The notes below the pieces were generated by a model that did not search any database, was not told where the DNA came from, and was given only the letters and a program-made list of their open reading frames with translations. Position numbers and translations under genes: made by a program. Source: Oleisolibacter albus (GTDB lineage: Bacteria; Pseudomonadota; Alphaproteobacteria; Azospirillales; Azospirillaceae). From it: DNA of 64,000 nt. The stretch spans positions 1-64,000 of the forward strand of contig NZ_QGNJ01000007.1 of the NCBI RefSeq assembly GCF_003336875.1, written 5' to 3'. Below, one piece after another: positions 45,093 to 54,728 of the stretch; position 1 is the first letter of the stretch; each line of letters opens with the position of its first letter.

Positions 45093-45800
45093 TCATTGGG
45101 ACATACGTTCCAAAAAAGGCAGATCGTGAACGACCATATACCCATTGCGGTAGGAGATGGCACCACTGGCCTGAAAACTCTTCATGGTCTTGTTCACGAT
45201 CTCCCGCGAGACCCCCAGCATATTCGCCAGATCCTCCTGGGAAATGAAGGTTCCGATCCGGGTGCCGGAGGGGGTCGCCCGTCCAAAGCTCTGCGCCAAC
45301 ATGGTGATCCTCTTGGCCAGACGACGGGTGACATTCAGAAAGACCGTGTCTTCGATAATCCCACTGGTCCAACGCACCCGCGCGCACAGGACGCCCATCA
45401 GCCGGATGCACAGGCTGGAACGTGCCTCGAGAAACGGCATGAAGTCTCTGCGGTCGACACGAAGAAGTTCGGAAGGTTCCTGGGCAACGACCGTGGCTGT
45501 CCGTTCCCCCCCATCCAGCATCGCGATTTCCCCGAACATTTCTCCGGCGTCGAGAATGTTCAGCAGCATGACCTTGGCATCGGTCGACTCGGTGACAACC
45601 CCCATACGCCCCCGCAGGATGACATAGAGGCAGTCCCCTGGATCTCCCTTGGCGAAGACGCGTTCATCCGCCTGGAAACGAACCGTCCGTGAAAACTCCA
45701 GGACGGCCTCCAGCTCCGCCGGGTCCAGAACCGAAAATACACTGTTGCGCCGAAGGAACTCCTTGTCGATCAGAGAGCCGGCTACCGTATTTCGTTTCAT
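45093..45800 (-). CDS. Crp/Fnr-family transcriptional regulator
   Basis: A 235-aa regulator. The cyclic-nucleotide-binding beta-roll (about 20-140) contains FAKGDPGDCLYVILRGRMGV and the phosphate-binding cassette FGEIAMLDGGERTATVV, including the Arg that contacts cNMP in CRP proteins. The C-terminal winged helix has ISQEDLANMLGVSREIVNKTM. Its recognition helix R-E-x-x-x-K resembles CRP (R-E-x-x-x-R) rather than FNR, predicting a TGTGA half-site. No FNR-type N-terminal cysteine cluster is present. Start 45800 was chosen; 45848 is an alternative. It lies 68 bp after tfuA on the same strand. A perfect TGTGA-N6-TCACA site lies upstream of the peptide/ycaO operon. Confidence 0.88.
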   Translation of the reverse strand: MKRNTVAGSLIDKEFLRRNSVFSVLDPAELEAVLEFSRTVRFQADERVFAKGDPGDCLYVILRGRMGVVTESTDAKVMLLNILDAGEMFGEIAMLDGGERTATVVAQEPSELLRVDRRDFMPFLEARSSLCIRLMGVLCARVRWTSGIIEDTVFLNVTRRLAKRITMLAQSFGRATPSGTRIGTFISQEDLANMLGVSREIVNKTMKSFQASGAISYRNGYMVVHDLPFLERMSQ

Positions 45801-45868
45801 GGCCACGCGAAGAGAGTGAACCCAGTCTTGGACATGATTCACATCCATCCGCGCGCATTGCAACCAAA

Positions 45869-46618
45869 TTACACAGTCATGGGCATGTCCAGCGCGGAGC
45901 GGGCGGCACGCTCCCACATGACGGTATGCTCGAAAGGAAATAGGGGTCGCGGCCTCTGTGAACCGGACGGATGTTCGACGCCCAGCGTCCGCAGCATGTC
46001 CAGGGCATCTTCCCGCTTCTGATCGGCCCGGCCACAGGGCAGCCAATCCCGGAGACCCGCCAATTCGCTGCCGGGAACCCCGGCCTCCTTGGCCCGGAGC
46101 AACAGCGAACCGTACCCCCGCATCTTGTAAGGCATCGCTTTGGCCAAACACTCGAGGTGCCGGCGCAACGGGGTGGAGAGCACCCCGGCGGCATGGGCAT
46201 CGGACAAGGTGCGGCGAATATTGACCATGGCCTCACTCAGCAGGGGATAGCCAAGTTCGGCCGGACCATGGGTCACCGCCACTTCGTCATCATCCTCAAG
46301 CCGTCCATCCAGGAAGGCAGAGAAAATGGCGCCAACCCCGACCATGCCGAAACCGTGCAACTCCGCAGCCCGGAGAGCCCCCATGCTCGCCGCACCGAAA
46401 ACCGGAATGCCGCGGTCCAGGGCAAACAGGATCTCCTTGTGCCAGACCGCGGGGACATTCTCGAAATACCCGTCGATGATGCCGATGGCCGCGGGCTGGT
46501 CCATCACCGCCCGCAGCACATCGCCCTGGGACACCGGGGGACGGTAATCAGCGGGCAATACCTGCCGCGCCTCGGATACGGGCAGGGTCGGACCGAGGAA
46601 AATGATGGCATCGGACAT
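45869..46618 (-). CDS. tfuA: TfuA-like protein (YcaO partner)
   Basis: A 249-aa protein with the full TfuA core pattern: IIFLGPTLPVSEA, then IGIIDGYFENVPAVWHKEIL, ALDRGIPVFGAASMGALRAAEL, GVGAIFSAFLDGRLEDDDEVAV and YPLLSEAMVNIRRTL. TfuA was first seen in the trifolitoxin locus of Rhizobium. In other systems it works with YcaO in peptide-backbone thioamide formation, proposed to deliver or activate sulfur. The ATG at 46618 has GGAAGGGG upstream. It follows the YcaO stop by 31 bp. The C-terminal about 110 residues are helical and less conserved. The exact chemistry here is unknown. Confidence 0.9.
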   Translation of the reverse strand: MSDAIIFLGPTLPVSEARQVLPADYRPPVSQGDVLRAVMDQPAAIGIIDGYFENVPAVWHKEILFALDRGIPVFGAASMGALRAAELHGFGMVGVGAIFSAFLDGRLEDDDEVAVTHGPAELGYPLLSEAMVNIRRTLSDAHAAGVLSTPLRRHLECLAKAMPYKMRGYGSLLLRAKEAGVPGSELAGLRDWLPCGRADQKREDALDMLRTLGVEHPSGSQRPRPLFPFEHTVMWERAARSALDMPMTV

Positions 46619-46649
46619 CGGAATTCCCCTTCCTTGCTCCCGATCTCTG

Positions 46650-47951
46650 TTAGCGCCCGAGAACGCGCCGGGCGCGCGGGCCGGGCAACAATCCTGATGA
46701 GGTCTGCACCCCCTCCAGGCCCGGGACGATGACGCGCACGACCGGGATGCCGAATTCCCGGCGCGTAAGGTCGACGACCAGGGCCTGTGCCAGTCCCACA
46801 GCGGCCAACCGGTCCAGCAACGCGTCCAGATCGCCACGAAGACTGCGCCCCCCCCAGGTGGGAAGCGCATTGAAATCGCGGACGGGCGCGCCAAGACGAA
46901 TGCGGGAAAGCCAGCGCGCCTGCTCGGCCGGCGCCAGAAGGCGCTGGTAATCCTCCCGCAGCAGATCATCACGTGCGCCGGAGATATAGGTGAGACGGCA
47001 TTGCGCCGCCTCCGTCAGCGCCCGGGCAAGGGCGACCTCCCGGATCAGGTGCGTTCCGGAACCGTAGGCCGGTCCGATGCACTGTCCTGGACCTTCGGAG
47101 CCTTGGACCACCCGGCAATAGAAAGAGGGTATGCCCAGATCGGACGTCATATCCCAAACGCCCACTTCGACCCCGGCGCAGGCGAACCGTGTCAACAACC
47201 GGCGGCAGAGCGGGTCCGCCACGGTCTCCAGATCCAATCGGGTTTCGTCCTGGGTCTCCTCATCGCGCAGGGACCACAAGGTGCGCGCATCGCGCTCGAT
47301 CACCTCGCACAGTCCGTGGATGATCGCCTCGAGCCGGTGATTCCCCGAGGCAAGCCCGTTCGACGAGGCCAGGAAACACCCGTGCCCCTGGGGAAATGGA
47401 AGCCGGTAGTCCATATGGACCAGTTCGTAGGGGACCCAAGCGGTTACGCCCGCGATCAGATCGTCGGCCTCGATCCAGAGCAGGGGCATGAACGGGGTAT
47501 AGGGGCTGGACGCCGGTCGGGGAAGCGCTGCCGGATCAACAAGCCGGTTGCTGTAGCGCAGATCCTCGTAACTGCCGCGTTTGAGCGGCAGATCGATATG
47601 CTCGGCGTGCCAGCTCTCGATGGCTTCCATGAGGCCGGAAACCTTGGCCGCGGCCAGGGACGTTCCCTTGCCCTGGCTGACCGCAAGCGCCCGCGCATTG
47701 GGACGGTTCACCATCACCACCGGAATGCCGACACTGTCCAGACCGGTGACATTGGCAATTCTCGTGATCCCGAAGATCGGAAGCAATGGCCGCATGCGCG
47801 TCAGCGTCTCCTCGGCCGGCACGATGCGCCGCCAGGATAAGCTGGGCAGATGATCCGCCATTTCGTTGCTGCGGCGGAACATGCGCTCTGCGTCCTGTCG
47901 GAGCGGTTCGACCGGCCGGGAGAGCCGTGCGTGATCCCCTGAGCCTGCCAT
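46650..47951 (-). CDS. YcaO-family peptide-modifying enzyme
   Basis: A 433-aa YcaO protein. YcaO enzymes use ATP to activate peptide backbone amides for azoline, thioamide or amidine formation. The ATP/Mg-binding blocks are intact: GKGTSLAAAKVSGLMEAIESWHAE (94-117, E109/E112), SSNGLASGNHRLEAIIHGLCEVIERDA (196-222, E208, E216, R220), and the N-terminal GITRIANVTGLDSVGIPV. The C-terminus (GLLPGPRARRVLGR) lacks the PxPxP tail of azoline-forming cyclodehydratases. No E1-like partner is adjacent. Both facts, and the tfuA neighbour, point to thioamidation-type chemistry (inference). It starts 9 bp after the stop of a 54-aa peptide gene. An in-frame ATG at 47882 is an alternative start. Confidence 0.92.
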   Translation of the reverse strand: MAGSGDHARLSRPVEPLRQDAERMFRRSNEMADHLPSLSWRRIVPAEETLTRMRPLLPIFGITRIANVTGLDSVGIPVVMVNRPNARALAVSQGKGTSLAAAKVSGLMEAIESWHAEHIDLPLKRGSYEDLRYSNRLVDPAALPRPASSPYTPFMPLLWIEADDLIAGVTAWVPYELVHMDYRLPFPQGHGCFLASSNGLASGNHRLEAIIHGLCEVIERDARTLWSLRDEETQDETRLDLETVADPLCRRLLTRFACAGVEVGVWDMTSDLGIPSFYCRVVQGSEGPGQCIGPAYGSGTHLIREVALARALTEAAQCRLTYISGARDDLLREDYQRLLAPAEQARWLSRIRLGAPVRDFNALPTWGGRSLRGDLDALLDRLAAVGLAQALVVDLTRREFGIPVVRVIVPGLEGVQTSSGLLPGPRARRVLGR

Positions 47952-47960
47952 CGGGGCCGA

Positions 47961-48125
47961 TCAGGGGAACCGCGGATTGACAAAATCGGCACCGGCCGTG
48001 AGATCAAAGACAGGTGCATCTTGATGATCCGAATGCGGCGCCTCGGACGGCAGCGCTTCGGCAACGACCCTGACGCCGGCCGGCGTCACTTCATAAAGGC
48101 GACCATCTGCACCGCGAACCAGCAT
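47961..48125 (-). CDS. 54-aa peptide, candidate substrate (precursor) of YcaO-TfuA
   Basis: A small gene with an excellent ribosome binding site (AGGAGGAG, 7 bases before ATG 48125), first in the peptide-ycaO-tfuA unit and 9 bp before ycaO. The product begins MLVRGADGRLYEVTPAGVRV and ends FDLTAGADFVNPRFP. The N-terminal half looks structured (a leader-like LYEVTPAGVRVVAEAL). The centre is acidic and His-rich (SEAPHSDHQDAP), and the C-terminal about 15 residues are a plausible core. It has no Cys and few Ser/Thr, so azoline formation is unlikely, but backbone thioamidation needs no side chain. No known precursor family was recognised. It could instead be a small accessory protein. Confidence 0.7.
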   Translation of the reverse strand: MLVRGADGRLYEVTPAGVRVVAEALPSEAPHSDHQDAPVFDLTAGADFVNPRFP

Positions 48126-48267
48126 GGACAGACTCCTCCTGATGGATGATCGTCATCGGCCCCGTCGGACCGACCGCTCAACGGGTCTTCCGGACCCTGG
48201 CGCAGGCCAAAAGCCCCGGTTAACCACGTTCCGGCGGTGACCGTAGCGCCTGGGATGCATGCTGGTG

Positions 48268-48283
48268 TGTGAAGCAGTTCACA
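48268..48283. promoter_or_regulatory. Perfect CRP-type palindrome TGTGA-N6-TCACA
   Basis: TGTGAAGCAGTTCACA at 48268-48283 matches the E. coli CRP consensus core at all ten conserved positions. It lies in the 225-bp divergent region between the peptide/ycaO operon (ATG at 48125, about 150 bp to the left) and the RHH_4 gene (ATG at 48351, about 75 bp to the right). The CRP-like protein encoded in the same locus is the natural candidate to bind it. Confidence 0.7.
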
Positions 48284-48350: not shown

Positions 48351-48689
48351 ATGATGGGCGCGGAAAAAGAAGTGAAGACAAACAGGGCGGATCGGTCAAT
48401 CCCTGTGCATCATCCTGATGACATGGACGTGGACGGGCAGCTGATCAGCCACAATGTCTGGGTGCAGGGTCACCGGACCAGCGTCAGACTGGAAGCCGTC
48501 ATGTGGCAAGCCCTGCATGAGATTGCCGCCCGCGAAGAAATCACCATTCACCAGCTGATCACGCTTATTTCCGATAAGCAGGGTATCAATTCTTCCCTCA
48601 CGGCGACCATCCGCGCATTTCTTGTCGCTTATTTCCGGACCTTGTTCCGAACGGCTGGCGATTTCCGCCTCCGCCCGATGAACAGCTGA
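48351..48689 (+). CDS. RHH_4 ribbon-helix-helix domain protein
   Basis: A 112-aa protein of the RHH_4 family (PF13467), common in alphaproteobacteria. The DNA-binding core NVWVQGHRTSVRLEAVMWQALHEIAAREEITIHQLITLIS is followed by SSLTATIRAFLVAYFRTLF, as in the family. Members are small putative repressors of unknown targets. The ATG at 48351 has AAGGAGCAAC directly upstream. It is divergent from the peptide/ycaO operon and shares its control region with the CRP-type site. It is convergent with the cyclase-ATPase gene. Confidence 0.85.
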   Translation: MMGAEKEVKTNRADRSIPVHHPDDMDVDGQLISHNVWVQGHRTSVRLEAVMWQALHEIAAREEITIHQLITLISDKQGINSSLTATIRAFLVAYFRTLFRTAGDFRLRPMNS

Positions 48690-51887: not shown

Positions 51888-53129
51888 TTAGTATGTCGCG
51901 GTCAGCCGCAGAAAGGCAGCATTGCTTTCAAAATCACGTCCAGGGATGTTCGAAACACGGCTGGAGAAACCATATCCGACATCGATGTTGAAGAATTGGT
52001 TAAACAGGTACTTCATGCCGATTCCTGCTGAGTACAACTCCTCCTCGCGCACGCTGCCTTTGTAGTCATCCTCGGCATAACCGGCATAGCCACCGAGGAT
52101 GAGATTGCGCAGGAGTTCATGATCGACCCGCACCTGGTATTCCGTCTGTACGAAGGACGAACTACCGGACAGGGTTGTCTCCTCGACCGTGTTGGAGACG
52201 CCGACGGACACCGTGGTCAGCGGCGTTGGGTTCCAATCGAGGCTGGCGCCATAGGTCAGCCCATCAACAGACGCATAGGCGGAGTCCTTGTAGTTTTGGC
52301 GGCGGTAACCGGCGAAGACTTCCCCCGTCGTGATGCCGCTGATATCGACCGCGACGCCGCCCGTCGCGGCATAACCATCGGAGTCACGCGCCGATCCCTG
52401 ATCATACCGGCGCCAATTGAAGCCCCCTTGGACGAACGCAGACAGGTTGGGCGATGTCGCATAGGCAAGGCGGCCGGTGACCCCATACTCGTTGCGGTCA
52501 CGGGTGTCCTGATCCAGCAGCCCGCCGCCAAAGGCGGCCACATCCTCGAAGTCGTAATTCCGCCAGTCGGCCATCAAACGGCCTGACAACCTGGCGACCT
52601 CGCGGCGCAGCGTGACACCGGCCGTCGTCAGATCATATTCTGTCGGCTCGGCCCCGCCGACATCGTTGGCAGCGCCCCGTTCCTCGTGGCGATTCTGATA
52701 GCCCGCATTGACATTGAGCGCAGTCCCCGCGGTGATATCGAAACGGCTGTCCGCCAAGGCAAAATAGTCCGTGTAGTTCTCGCTGCTGTTATCGGCATGT
52801 CGGCCCAGCTCCGCGCCGGCCCGGAGACCGACGGCATGCCGGCCCCAGTCAGAGCGCACCCGCAGTTCCGGACGGGCAATGAAGATGAAGTCGTCTACTT
52901 TTCCGGTCTGGCTTGCGTAGATATTGTCATCATATTCGCTGCTCAGCGCCAACTGGGGGAAGAGCAGGAATGAACCGGCCCGCAGCCCTTTCGCATCATA
53001 ATCCGGCCGGGCGCGCTCCGTCACTGTCTGGCCGCGCCGCGGTTCCTGGGCCGAGGCAGGGCTGGCCACGGACGTCAGCATGCTGGTGCTCAGCAAACCG
53101 GCCCCTACGGCGAAGAGCGCTTTCCGCAT
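51888..53129 (-). CDS. Outer-membrane beta-barrel protein (BBP2_2-like)
   Basis: A 413-aa exported protein. The signal peptide MRKALFAVGAGLLSTSMLTSVASPASAQ is cleaved after ASAQ or nearby. The rest consists of alternating aromatic beta strands (LALSSEYDDNIYASQTGKVDDFIFIARPELRVRSDW, then repeated pairs) ending in FLRLTATY, an outer-membrane C-terminal strand. It resembles outer-membrane beta-barrel family BBP2_2, often linked to exopolysaccharide loci. Role unknown. A GACACTGTC-centred inverted repeat lies downstream, at about 51748, between this gene and the cyclase-ATPase. A short hairpin (CACTGC-AAG-GCAGTG, 53168-53182) lies 39 bp upstream. Confidence 0.85.
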   Translation of the reverse strand: MRKALFAVGAGLLSTSMLTSVASPASAQEPRRGQTVTERARPDYDAKGLRAGSFLLFPQLALSSEYDDNIYASQTGKVDDFIFIARPELRVRSDWGRHAVGLRAGAELGRHADNSSENYTDYFALADSRFDITAGTALNVNAGYQNRHEERGAANDVGGAEPTEYDLTTAGVTLRREVARLSGRLMADWRNYDFEDVAAFGGGLLDQDTRDRNEYGVTGRLAYATSPNLSAFVQGGFNWRRYDQGSARDSDGYAATGGVAVDISGITTGEVFAGYRRQNYKDSAYASVDGLTYGASLDWNPTPLTTVSVGVSNTVEETTLSGSSSFVQTEYQVRVDHELLRNLILGGYAGYAEDDYKGSVREEELYSAGIGMKYLFNQFFNIDVGYGFSSRVSNIPGRDFESNAAFLRLTATY

Positions 53130-53801
53130 AGTCTCTGTACCCCTTCCGTAAATTCTTCAAAACCCTCCACTGCAAGGCAGTGCATTAGCCGCCTAACACT
53201 TCGGATTTCGAGCAGCAAGAAGGGCAAATGGAGAATTCCCACTACCACGTATGGCATCCACCATCTTTCTTGACTTGTACTTTCCAAACAACCCCGGCGC
53301 AATTCAGAAAAAATTCTCTACGTCCAGACGAATTTTTCAGTATTACTTCATGTCCTCCATACACTTGATCTCTCATACAAAGCGGCGGCAATGATGGCGT
53401 TCAGATCCTCCAATTGCGGCCACCACCCGAGGTCACGAATCGCAGCGGCGGGATCGGCCACGACCTACATGGCATCCCCCCAACCGTTCCGCACGCGGCA
53501 TGGATTGCCGACACGCGCGGAAGCCGGCGGGACCTGCGGAAAGGAAGCGCGTCTCCCTTCATCGATCACCATGCAAGGTCCGCCTCCCCGGGGGGCATAG
53601 GCTTGCCATAGCTGGATCTCGGCCGGAAGGCCGAATGGATACCCGTTCGATCCCGGCGCAGTGTCACCAGCGCGAGAACCCCACCTTGGCCAAAGGGTCA
53701 AGGCCCGGCATGGAATACGCTAATTGTCCGGGCTGCGCGTCGAATACAGGATTAAGTATTCACCCCTTGCGGCCCCCGCCCCTTAAATCAGGATAATGTC
53801 A
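53130..53801. other. 670-bp AT-richer intergenic region
   Basis: No supportable gene. The part at 53130-53400 is distinctly AT-richer than the window average (runs such as AAAAAATTCTCT and GAATTTTTCAG). It holds the hairpin CACTGC-AAG-GCAGTG at 53168-53182 upstream of the beta-barrel gene. The part 53400-53780 has overlapping short frames without ribosome binding sites. The composition change suggests a boundary of acquired DNA or a promoter-rich spacer. Confidence 0.4.
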
Positions 53802-54728
53802 ATGACGGGGATCTACACCGATCATGGTTTTTCCGACACTCAACGGCGAGAGCATGTCTTGGCAGGGCATTTGTTCATTCTCTCCGACAGGCCTGGGCTT
53901 CAAGCGCTCTGCGTGCATGCGGATAAACTGATCCGGGAGGCCTTCGATGGAATAGACCCCCTGATGGCTCAACATGCCTTGACCGTCGACCAGTTTGTCG
54001 CCTGTGTCTCCCCATTGAAATCAACCTTCACGAACAGCGACGAGACAAAGTCGCTGATGCAGGCCTGTTTACGGGAGCTGGGGTGCGATCCCGCGGACAC
54101 CTATTTTGATCTGCCTCGGCTTCGGGCAATTCCCAGTCACGATTATCTGACATCCGGGGTCAGCTACAATTATCAACCCCACCGGGACACCTGGTATGCC
54201 CACCCACAGGCCTTGATCAATTTCTGGATGCCTGTCTATGGCATCACGGCTGATGGCGGCATGGACATGTTTCCGGGATATTTCAACCATCCGGTCCCCA
54301 ACGGGTCAGCAGGGTTCCATTATGGCGACTGGGTCGCAACGGCCCGGTACGCGGCAGCACAGCACATCACCAGCGATCCTCGTCCGCATCCCTGGCCGGA
54401 TCGCCCCATCGACCGCACCGGCGCGGTTCGGCTGGCGCTCGGCGCCGCCGAGGCCATGTGTTTCTCCGGCCACCATCTGCATGCATCCGCCCCCAACCGC
54501 ATGGGCTTCACCCGGTTCAGCATCGATTTCCGAACCATAAGCCTGAGCGATCTGCGCGATGGCCGCGGCCCTGCAAATCTGGACAGCGATGCCCGCGGCA
54601 CGACCCTGGCAGATTTTCTCCGGGTGACCGACCTCGCCCCCCTCGATATCAACGTGATCGATATGGACCGGGTGTACCCGCCGTCGCGGCTGTCGCTGGA
54701 GGGGGCATCGGCCCTGGCTCAACCCTGA
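53802..54728 (+). CDS. 2OG-Fe(II)-oxygenase-like protein (PhyH-type pattern)
   Basis: A protein of about 308 aa. The C-terminal two thirds show a double-stranded beta-helix oxygenase pattern: YQPHRDTWYAHPQALINFWMPVYGITADGGMDMFPG (HxD metal pair) and, about 100 residues later, CFSGHHLHASAPNRMGFTRFSIDFRT (third metal His and an Arg for 2-oxoglutarate). This would oxidise or hydroxylate an unknown substrate. ATG 53802 (MTGIYT) has AGGA at good spacing; ATG 53796 is two codons earlier. Codon use is more relaxed than in neighbours, consistent with acquisition. The gene is convergent with cobC and overlaps its end by 10 bp. No precise family name can be given. Confidence 0.65.
   Translation: MTGIYTDHGFSDTQRREHVLAGHLFILSDRPGLQALCVHADKLIREAFDGIDPLMAQHALTVDQFVACVSPLKSTFTNSDETKSLMQACLRELGCDPADTYFDLPRLRAIPSHDYLTSGVSYNYQPHRDTWYAHPQALINFWMPVYGITADGGMDMFPGYFNHPVPNGSAGFHYGDWVATARYAAAQHITSDPRPHPWPDRPIDRTGAVRLALGAAEAMCFSGHHLHASAPNRMGFTRFSIDFRTISLSDLRDGRGPANLDSDARGTTLADFLRVTDLAPLDINVIDMDRVYPPSRLSLEGASALAQP

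Follow-up and report, generated by a model that had tools for sequence, protein, structure and literature searches.

Thiovarsolins, the products of the var cluster of Streptomyces varsoviensis, are made with a YcaO and a TfuA protein and carry their thioamide on a short Arg-containing unit, APR; in the part of the published account considered here (PMC6511847), the cores of the family range from no repeat up to five repeats, and no dedicated protease is described, release by endogenous peptidases being proposed. Mined TfuA clusters, more than half of them proteobacterial, make up 613 families overall (Malit et al. 2021; PMC8120280); the portion of that text considered here, supplements aside, has no occurrence of the words Azospirillum, Alphaproteobacteria, cyclase, kinase, Crp or repeat. 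Furthermore, a large Ser/Thr kinase lies beside thiazole/oxazole-modified microcin (TOMM) precursors of Burkholderia (PMC2887384), and adenylate cyclases occur together with YcaO-TfuA in one group, branch 6, of the ATP-grasp loci for ribosomally synthesised and post-translationally modified peptides (RiPPs) (PMC8939145). Here, we describe a peptide-ycaO-tfuA operon with its own putative switch in a 64,000-nt stretch of the alphaproteobacterium Oleisolibacter albus (contig NZ_QGNJ01000007.1, positions 1 to 64,000; the whole stretch is called the window). We read it as a locus for a thioamidated RiPP under cyclic AMP (cAMP)/Crp control, similar in logic to the thiovarsolins and with a different leader, and give this reading a probability of about 0.74. 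The RiPP nature of peptide, YcaO and TfuA is well supported by comparison with relatives, while the thioamide, the synthesis of cAMP and DNA binding by Crp are predictions.

The first-pass annotation of the window had named the peptide gene, ycaO and tfuA on the minus strand, and all three lie where it put them (Table 1). As it said, the peptide of 54 codons is Cys-free and is preceded by a good ribosome binding site; the AGGAGG-to-ATG spacing is 9 nt. It had recognised no precursor family, and the peptide matches nothing in Pfam and finds in NCBIfam a chance-level match only (E 0.23). The reading frame is kept in relatives: dN/dS ranged from 0.03 to 0.32 over 14 pairs of homologues (the window peptide was left out), with a pooled proportion of synonymous differences (pS) of 0.42 vs 0.08 for nonsynonymous ones (pN). 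The peptide family evolves as protein-coding sequence; a chance open reading frame (ORF) was ruled out by this coding selection and by the conservation among homologues. It is thus a short gene under protein-level selection and, as shown below, linked to enzyme genes, as a RiPP precursor gene should be.

The linkage was followed in 59 genomes of the window's family. Thirty-six have a close TfuA (E<=1e-85), and the same 36 carry the peptide beside YcaO-TfuA, at a distance of up to about 2.5 kb from tfuA in 35 by coordinates and, in the 36th, from a plasmid record. Conversely, a search with the peptide (E<=0.024) found it in the window's genus (11 genomes, its own included) and in genus g12 (22 genomes), and ycaO adjoined it in 20 out of 20 loci obtained this way. 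The remaining three of the 36 are G012 and G019, with weak peptide matches in the right position (E 0.155 and 0.306 in the single-peptide search), and G022, the plasmid of Indioceanicola profundi (L134), where a diverged precursor gene missed by that search follows the palindrome described below. Because the single-peptide search is too weak to prove absence, the loci were read directly. G026, G013 and G018 have nothing closer than a distant TfuA, and the 20 other genomes have no TfuA match; at the G026 and G013 loci, ycaO and a cyclase gene are present, and neither peptide nor palindrome was found. In two further genomes, those of Azospirillum canadense and Azospirillum rugosum, a loss of the peptide was considered and rejected, as the genome search showed that it is relocated. 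Two Azospirillum genomes (L160, L161) also harbour an additional, more distant ycaO-tfuA pair at another place, with no cyclase gene, crp, palindrome or leader motif in the surrounding stretch.

A class-wide profile search (385 genomes, E<=0.01) gave 11 matches, four of them in the window's family. The seven from outside the family are weak (5.5e-4 to 0.0087), and the 1.7-3.1 kb inspected around them contain none of the genes ycaO, tfuA and crp. A wider survey took in the best 80 of 233 loci, named individually; this set overlaps the 59 genomes, and the two sets of counts are not to be summed. The precursor occurs in 46 of the 80 (counting L085, where it is cut by the contig end, and L084, with unread bases in the gene), 43 times along with crp, which is present in 47; tfuA is found in 78, and the two others (L115, L116) end near ycaO. 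In a YcaO tree of 81 rows, one clade (support 100/98) takes in 47, of which 45 have the precursor at the locus; the remaining two are the split operons, where it is relocated. Two precursor rows, L098 and L125, fall outside this clade.

An alignment of 23 peptides, all from the window's family, separates a conserved leader, RGADGRLYxV, of which RGADGRL is invariant, from C-termini that differ by group: DHEAARxMITPGA and similar in Azospirillum, GASAEIFASSAEIFSAKM or GASAELHSARS in Niveispirillum, and FDLTAGADFVNPRFP, with a single Thr, in the window. Some other alphaproteobacteria have a similar leader (RGADG or RGPDG) and, after it, between 4 and 20 tandem units, of which DHDAGRYMITPG is an example. 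The unit DHASARVFVDPG occurs four times in L074; DYHAGRMAIEA-type units occur nine times in L083, four times in L090 and six times in L096; L095 has twenty units, counted by A[GSA]R; and L125, where the precursor gene comes after tfuA, has ASRAVM units. SSWFA units are found in L098, an Anaerolineae contig. When nine tails were tested against 2000 shuffles, six exceeded every one, and L055, L076 and the window peptide gave no significant repeat. By eye, D-x-x-A-G recurs in DHEAGRMSITPG, DYDAGRMAIEAG, DLTAGADFVNPRFP, DHLAGEMIYGPPFIP and DLLAGGFQYIPV. A conserved leader before a variable or repeated C-terminal part, the repeats being confined to relatives of the window peptide, is the pattern of a RiPP core with a drifting copy number. 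A constant leader joined to a C-terminal part that changes and is multiplied supports the earlier proposal that this part is the core, and the repeats would place the modification site within it.

Small ORFs right before ycaO were also observed in other phyla (L105, L114, L115, L116, L118, L126, L130 and L136). They share a D/EDG-x-x-Y-like N-terminus, e.g., IADDGKVYKL and VGDDGSVYHI (five aligned), with terminal repeats at the other end in L115 and L130; the ones scanned (all except L115 and L116) had no Pfam or NCBIfam hits. Possibly, they constitute a wider leader class. In a Kiloniellales contig (L107:5499-5774), a repeating PTDRTPAGQ peptide with a different leader occurs upstream of ycaO.

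The identities of YcaO and TfuA are clear from their Pfam families, PF02624 and PF07812, and the two genes are adjacent, as in thioamidated RiPP loci. The best NCBIfam model of the YcaO is TIGR03266 (1.1e-69) and TfuA matches NF033432 (1.2e-60), the pair of models for glycine thioamidation in methyl-coenzyme M reductase (MCR); both scores lie under the curated cut-offs (235 bits vs 365 and 204.5 bits vs 235.2), so the window proteins are not members of those equivalog families. The solved chain nearest to YcaO is 6pe3 (MJ1094; 7.8e-37). Judged by these matches, the YcaO is nearest to the thioamidating kind, and a backbone thioamide in the product would follow from its pairing with TfuA. The predicted N-terminus of YcaO may be too long: alignments with relatives begin at residue 7 to 49, mostly 16-42, which makes a later start possible. 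The gap of 9 bp between the peptide gene and ycaO given in the first-pass annotation thus holds for the predicted start and depends on the start chosen.

Since the nearest curated models are those of the pair acting on an McrA glycine, the YcaO-TfuA pair could modify another protein with a housekeeping role, as with MCR and uL16, the peptide being an accessory or a bystander. Thioamidated proteins do exist (PMC13063428, PMC5589413), and the locus is kept across two whole genera, as expected of a housekeeping function. The tandem C-terminal repeats in relatives, the leader-type conservation and the constant linkage nonetheless fit a substrate, and according to PMC13063428, TfuA is not encoded near the suspected uL16-modifying YcaO enzymes; we regard a different target protein as improbable.

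The chemistry has to be weighed likewise. YcaO enzymes make azolines and amidines as well as thioamides (PMC8442711), and the SagD-type model TIGR03604 also matches the window YcaO (5.9e-42), so that a genuine precursor might receive an azoline or amidine instead. Against this, the thioamidation model gives a much better score, 78 of the 80 named loci have TfuA (the other two being cut), and many repeat units are without any Cys, Ser or Thr. The features of an azol(in)e RiPP (TOMM or linear azol(in)e-containing peptide) are missing too: the YcaO tail has no PxPxP, as first noted, the precursor has no Cys and its core one Thr, and the annotation of two Azospirillum loci includes no E1-like gene. 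A product other than a thioamide appears to us a poor bet.

Table 1. Features of the peptide-ycaO-tfuA locus and its neighbourhood in the window.
Feature	Position	Strand	Remarks
Precursor peptide gene	47961..48125	-	54 aa, no Cys, C-terminal end FDLTAGADFVNPRFP
Conserved leader MLVRGADGRLYEVTPAGVRVV, N-terminal	about 48063-48125	-	alignment with homologues
Proposed core FDLTAGADFVNPRFP, residues 40-54	47964..48008	-	relatives vary or repeat the same part
Ribosome binding site AGGAGGAG of peptide gene	48133..48140	-	
ycaO (start codon uncertain)	46650..47951	-	PF02624, 1.3e-86
tfuA	45869..46618	-	PF07812, 5.6e-45
Crp-family regulator gene (start chosen at 45848)	45093..45848	-	PF00027, 2.7e-23; PF13545, 8.1e-15
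Crp-type palindrome TGTGAAGCAGTTCACA, TGTGAA-N4-TTCACA	48268..48283	.	between divergent peptide and ribbon-helix-helix genes
Ribbon-helix-helix protein gene, RHH_4	48351..48689	+	PF13467, 3e-20
Gene for class III cyclase domain + AAA_16 ATPase, 967 aa	48772..51675	-	AAA_16, 3.5e-13; Guanylate_cyc, 1.4e-5

The locus had first been described as a compact unit of three genes. These are indeed present, but crp follows tfuA, starting about 20 bp past it, and cyclase/AAA and ribbon-helix-helix (RHH) genes lie upstream, so the unit is larger; the regulatory half (cyclase gene, crp gene and palindrome) was absent from that description. In the family, crp comes after tfuA in 21 out of 21 loci (20 relatives and the window), RHH proteins are encoded in 20 and a cyclase/AAA gene lies upstream in 18. 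The annotated order in Azospirillum lipoferum 4B and Azospirillum sp. B510 is cyclase, RHH, "hypothetical protein", YcaO-like, TfuA-like, Crp/Fnr and RHH, and no protease or peptide exporter is annotated between the module genes of these two strains.

The palindrome stands 142 bp from the ATG of the peptide gene and 67 bp from that of the RHH gene, and is the sole exact copy in the 4.69-Mb genome, which has two more copies with one mismatch. In the 59 genomes, we found 51 exact palindromes (one for a reversed control pattern), 32 of them at peptide loci; that is, at 32 of 36 such loci, the other four having 1, 1, 1 and 2 mismatches. The looser pattern TGTGA-N6-TCACA is exact in 18 of the 21 family loci (1, 1 and 2 mismatches in the three others). 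Among the 80 named loci, where the search for the site covered the whole locus rather than just the region before the peptide, 45 have it within one mismatch, and 44 of these have crp; the loci are related, and such counts are therefore not independent. In A. canadense and A. rugosum, where the operon is split, each half has an exact site.

Nineteen exact sites lie away from peptide loci, of which 18 were examined (G033 was left out): nine are beside other RHH-type genes in Azospirillum (L163-L170, L179; Pfam was run on one), four precede a GNAT-type gene in the window's genus, one precedes crp and four have no such neighbour. The site before crp (L162, in G026) is followed by that other crp gene and then a CHASE2-cyclase gene, with no ycaO in the 4.5-kb stretch inspected. 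The GNAT-type acetyltransferase gene is itself beside an AMP-binding (acyl-CoA ligase type) gene in L171, L172, L173, L175 and L181; the palindrome in front is exact in four genomes and has one mismatch in the window's own genome (L181), Pfam having been run on one GNAT. Thiovarsolins are N-acetylated, and by analogy, a link of the GNAT gene to the thioamide peptide through N-acetylation is conceivable.

Because RHH genes also mark palindromes, the site might belong to the RHH proteins rather than to Crp and the cAMP circuit be misread: exact sites adjoin RHH genes both in the module and at half of the 18 examined elsewhere. Those RHH genes may simply be Crp targets, however, and the site corresponds to the Crp consensus, TGTGA-N6-TCACA. 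The operon Crp (nearest solved chain 3i54, 5.4e-33) has a cyclic-nucleotide domain and a Crp helix-turn-helix, and all 21 family loci preserve GE..RT in the former and, within the recognition helix, [ST]RE; site and crp occur together in nearly all loci with a site, and the G026 site precedes crp and a cyclase gene. We hold RHH ownership of the palindrome to be unlikely; it would touch the control part only and is compatible with the RiPP reading.

The cyclase/AAA protein is, on its domains, the likely source of cAMP. The Asp pair at the metal positions is present in 18 of the 18 family proteins and a Walker A match in 15; a TPR_10 match in the window protein reaches only 0.1. Outside the 47-row YcaO clade, eight proteins encoded near YcaO-TfuA in Myxococcota, Acidobacteriota, Chloroflexota, Actinomycetota and alphaproteobacteria were scanned. 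AAA_16 is present in every one, accompanied by a cyclase domain in seven and by a kinase domain in two. Proteins of this make-up are common in myxobacteria, and this wider association is thus suggestive only. Next to the cyclase gene in the window is a beta-barrel porin gene (51888-53129; BBP2_2, 5e-116), as also in L023 and L036, and a 310-aa ORF without a Pfam match at E<=0.001 lies at 53796-54728.

Several observations weigh against the locus being a cAMP/Crp-controlled thioamidated RiPP. The window core is not repeated and is without the Arg of the repeated cores. Searched against the genomes of L095, L098 and L125, the family profile found none of their precursors at E<=0.01, and these are therefore identified by leader motif and position. 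A palindrome match with up to two mismatches is expected by chance within the 64-kb window, and the argument for the site thus rests on its conservation. Three of the 21 family loci show no cyclase gene: L037 and L040 are at contig ends, and L028/L059, without one in the available stretch, is not explained in this way. Active class III cyclases usually have N/R at the Asn/Arg pair positions; the cyclase domain of the window protein is weak (1.4e-5) and has H/K there, the first position being H in 17 and the second K in 18 of the 18 family proteins. LipJ, the top solved match of the cyclase, also has H at the first pair position.

The cAMP/Crp-controlled thioamidated RiPP would then work as follows. 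The cyclase/AAA protein would sense a signal and produce cAMP; cAMP-loaded Crp would bind at the palindrome and activate the peptide-ycaO-tfuA-crp operon, probably along with the divergent RHH gene; together, YcaO and TfuA would exchange a backbone oxygen for sulphur in the C-terminal core; and ordinary cell peptidases, by analogy with the thiovarsolins, would release short, protease-resistant thioamide peptides. One may go further and suppose that the thioamide peptide is the signal and the cyclase/AAA protein its receptor, closing a loop of peptide, cAMP, Crp and palindrome, and that the cyclase/kinase-AAA proteins beside YcaO-TfuA in several phyla stand for a general class of thioamide-peptide signalling; this extension we consider rather doubtful. 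A cyclase/AAA protein that did respond to the product would connect YcaO chemistry with second-messenger signalling.

The arrangement of peptide, enzymes and switch is kept in many soil and plant-associated relatives. It offers a candidate thioamidated RiPP family outside Actinobacteria, in culturable and much-studied plant-associated bacteria, together with a predicted cAMP-type on-switch, the lack of a switch being the usual reason why the product of a silent cluster escapes detection. Moreover, the forms with repeated cores supply many natural variants for mapping the amide attacked by YcaO-TfuA.

The system had initially been called undescribed, and our literature search (subscription papers and supplements were outside its scope) found no report of the RGADGRLYxV peptide family; since the mined TfuA clusters, which make up 613 families overall, come mostly from proteobacteria, the family may be among them without having been remarked on. 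The branch 6 loci are centred on ATP-grasp enzymes, of which none was seen in the module here, and no Crp or repeat is described for them in the part of PMC8939145 considered. The TOMM kinase/cyclase model TIGR03903 matches the window cyclase/AAA protein over 832 residues (6.2e-62), but at 210 bits vs a cut-off of 706 and without a kinase domain, the protein does not belong to that family. The MCR glycine thioamidation pair provides the nearest curated models and the nearest solved YcaO; it differs in that the window proteins score under the cut-offs and that a small precursor is linked here. The thiovarsolins are actinobacterial, and their var-type genes for heme oxygenase, ATP-grasp, amidinotransferase and major facilitator superfamily proteins were found neither in the two Azospirillum loci nor among the scanned window genes. 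The locus described here has its own leader, RGADGRLYxV, and a cyclase, Crp and palindrome, no cyclase being mentioned in the part of PMC6511847 considered; what its family shares with the thiovarsolins is the YcaO and TfuA pair and a leader joined to a core of drifting copy number.

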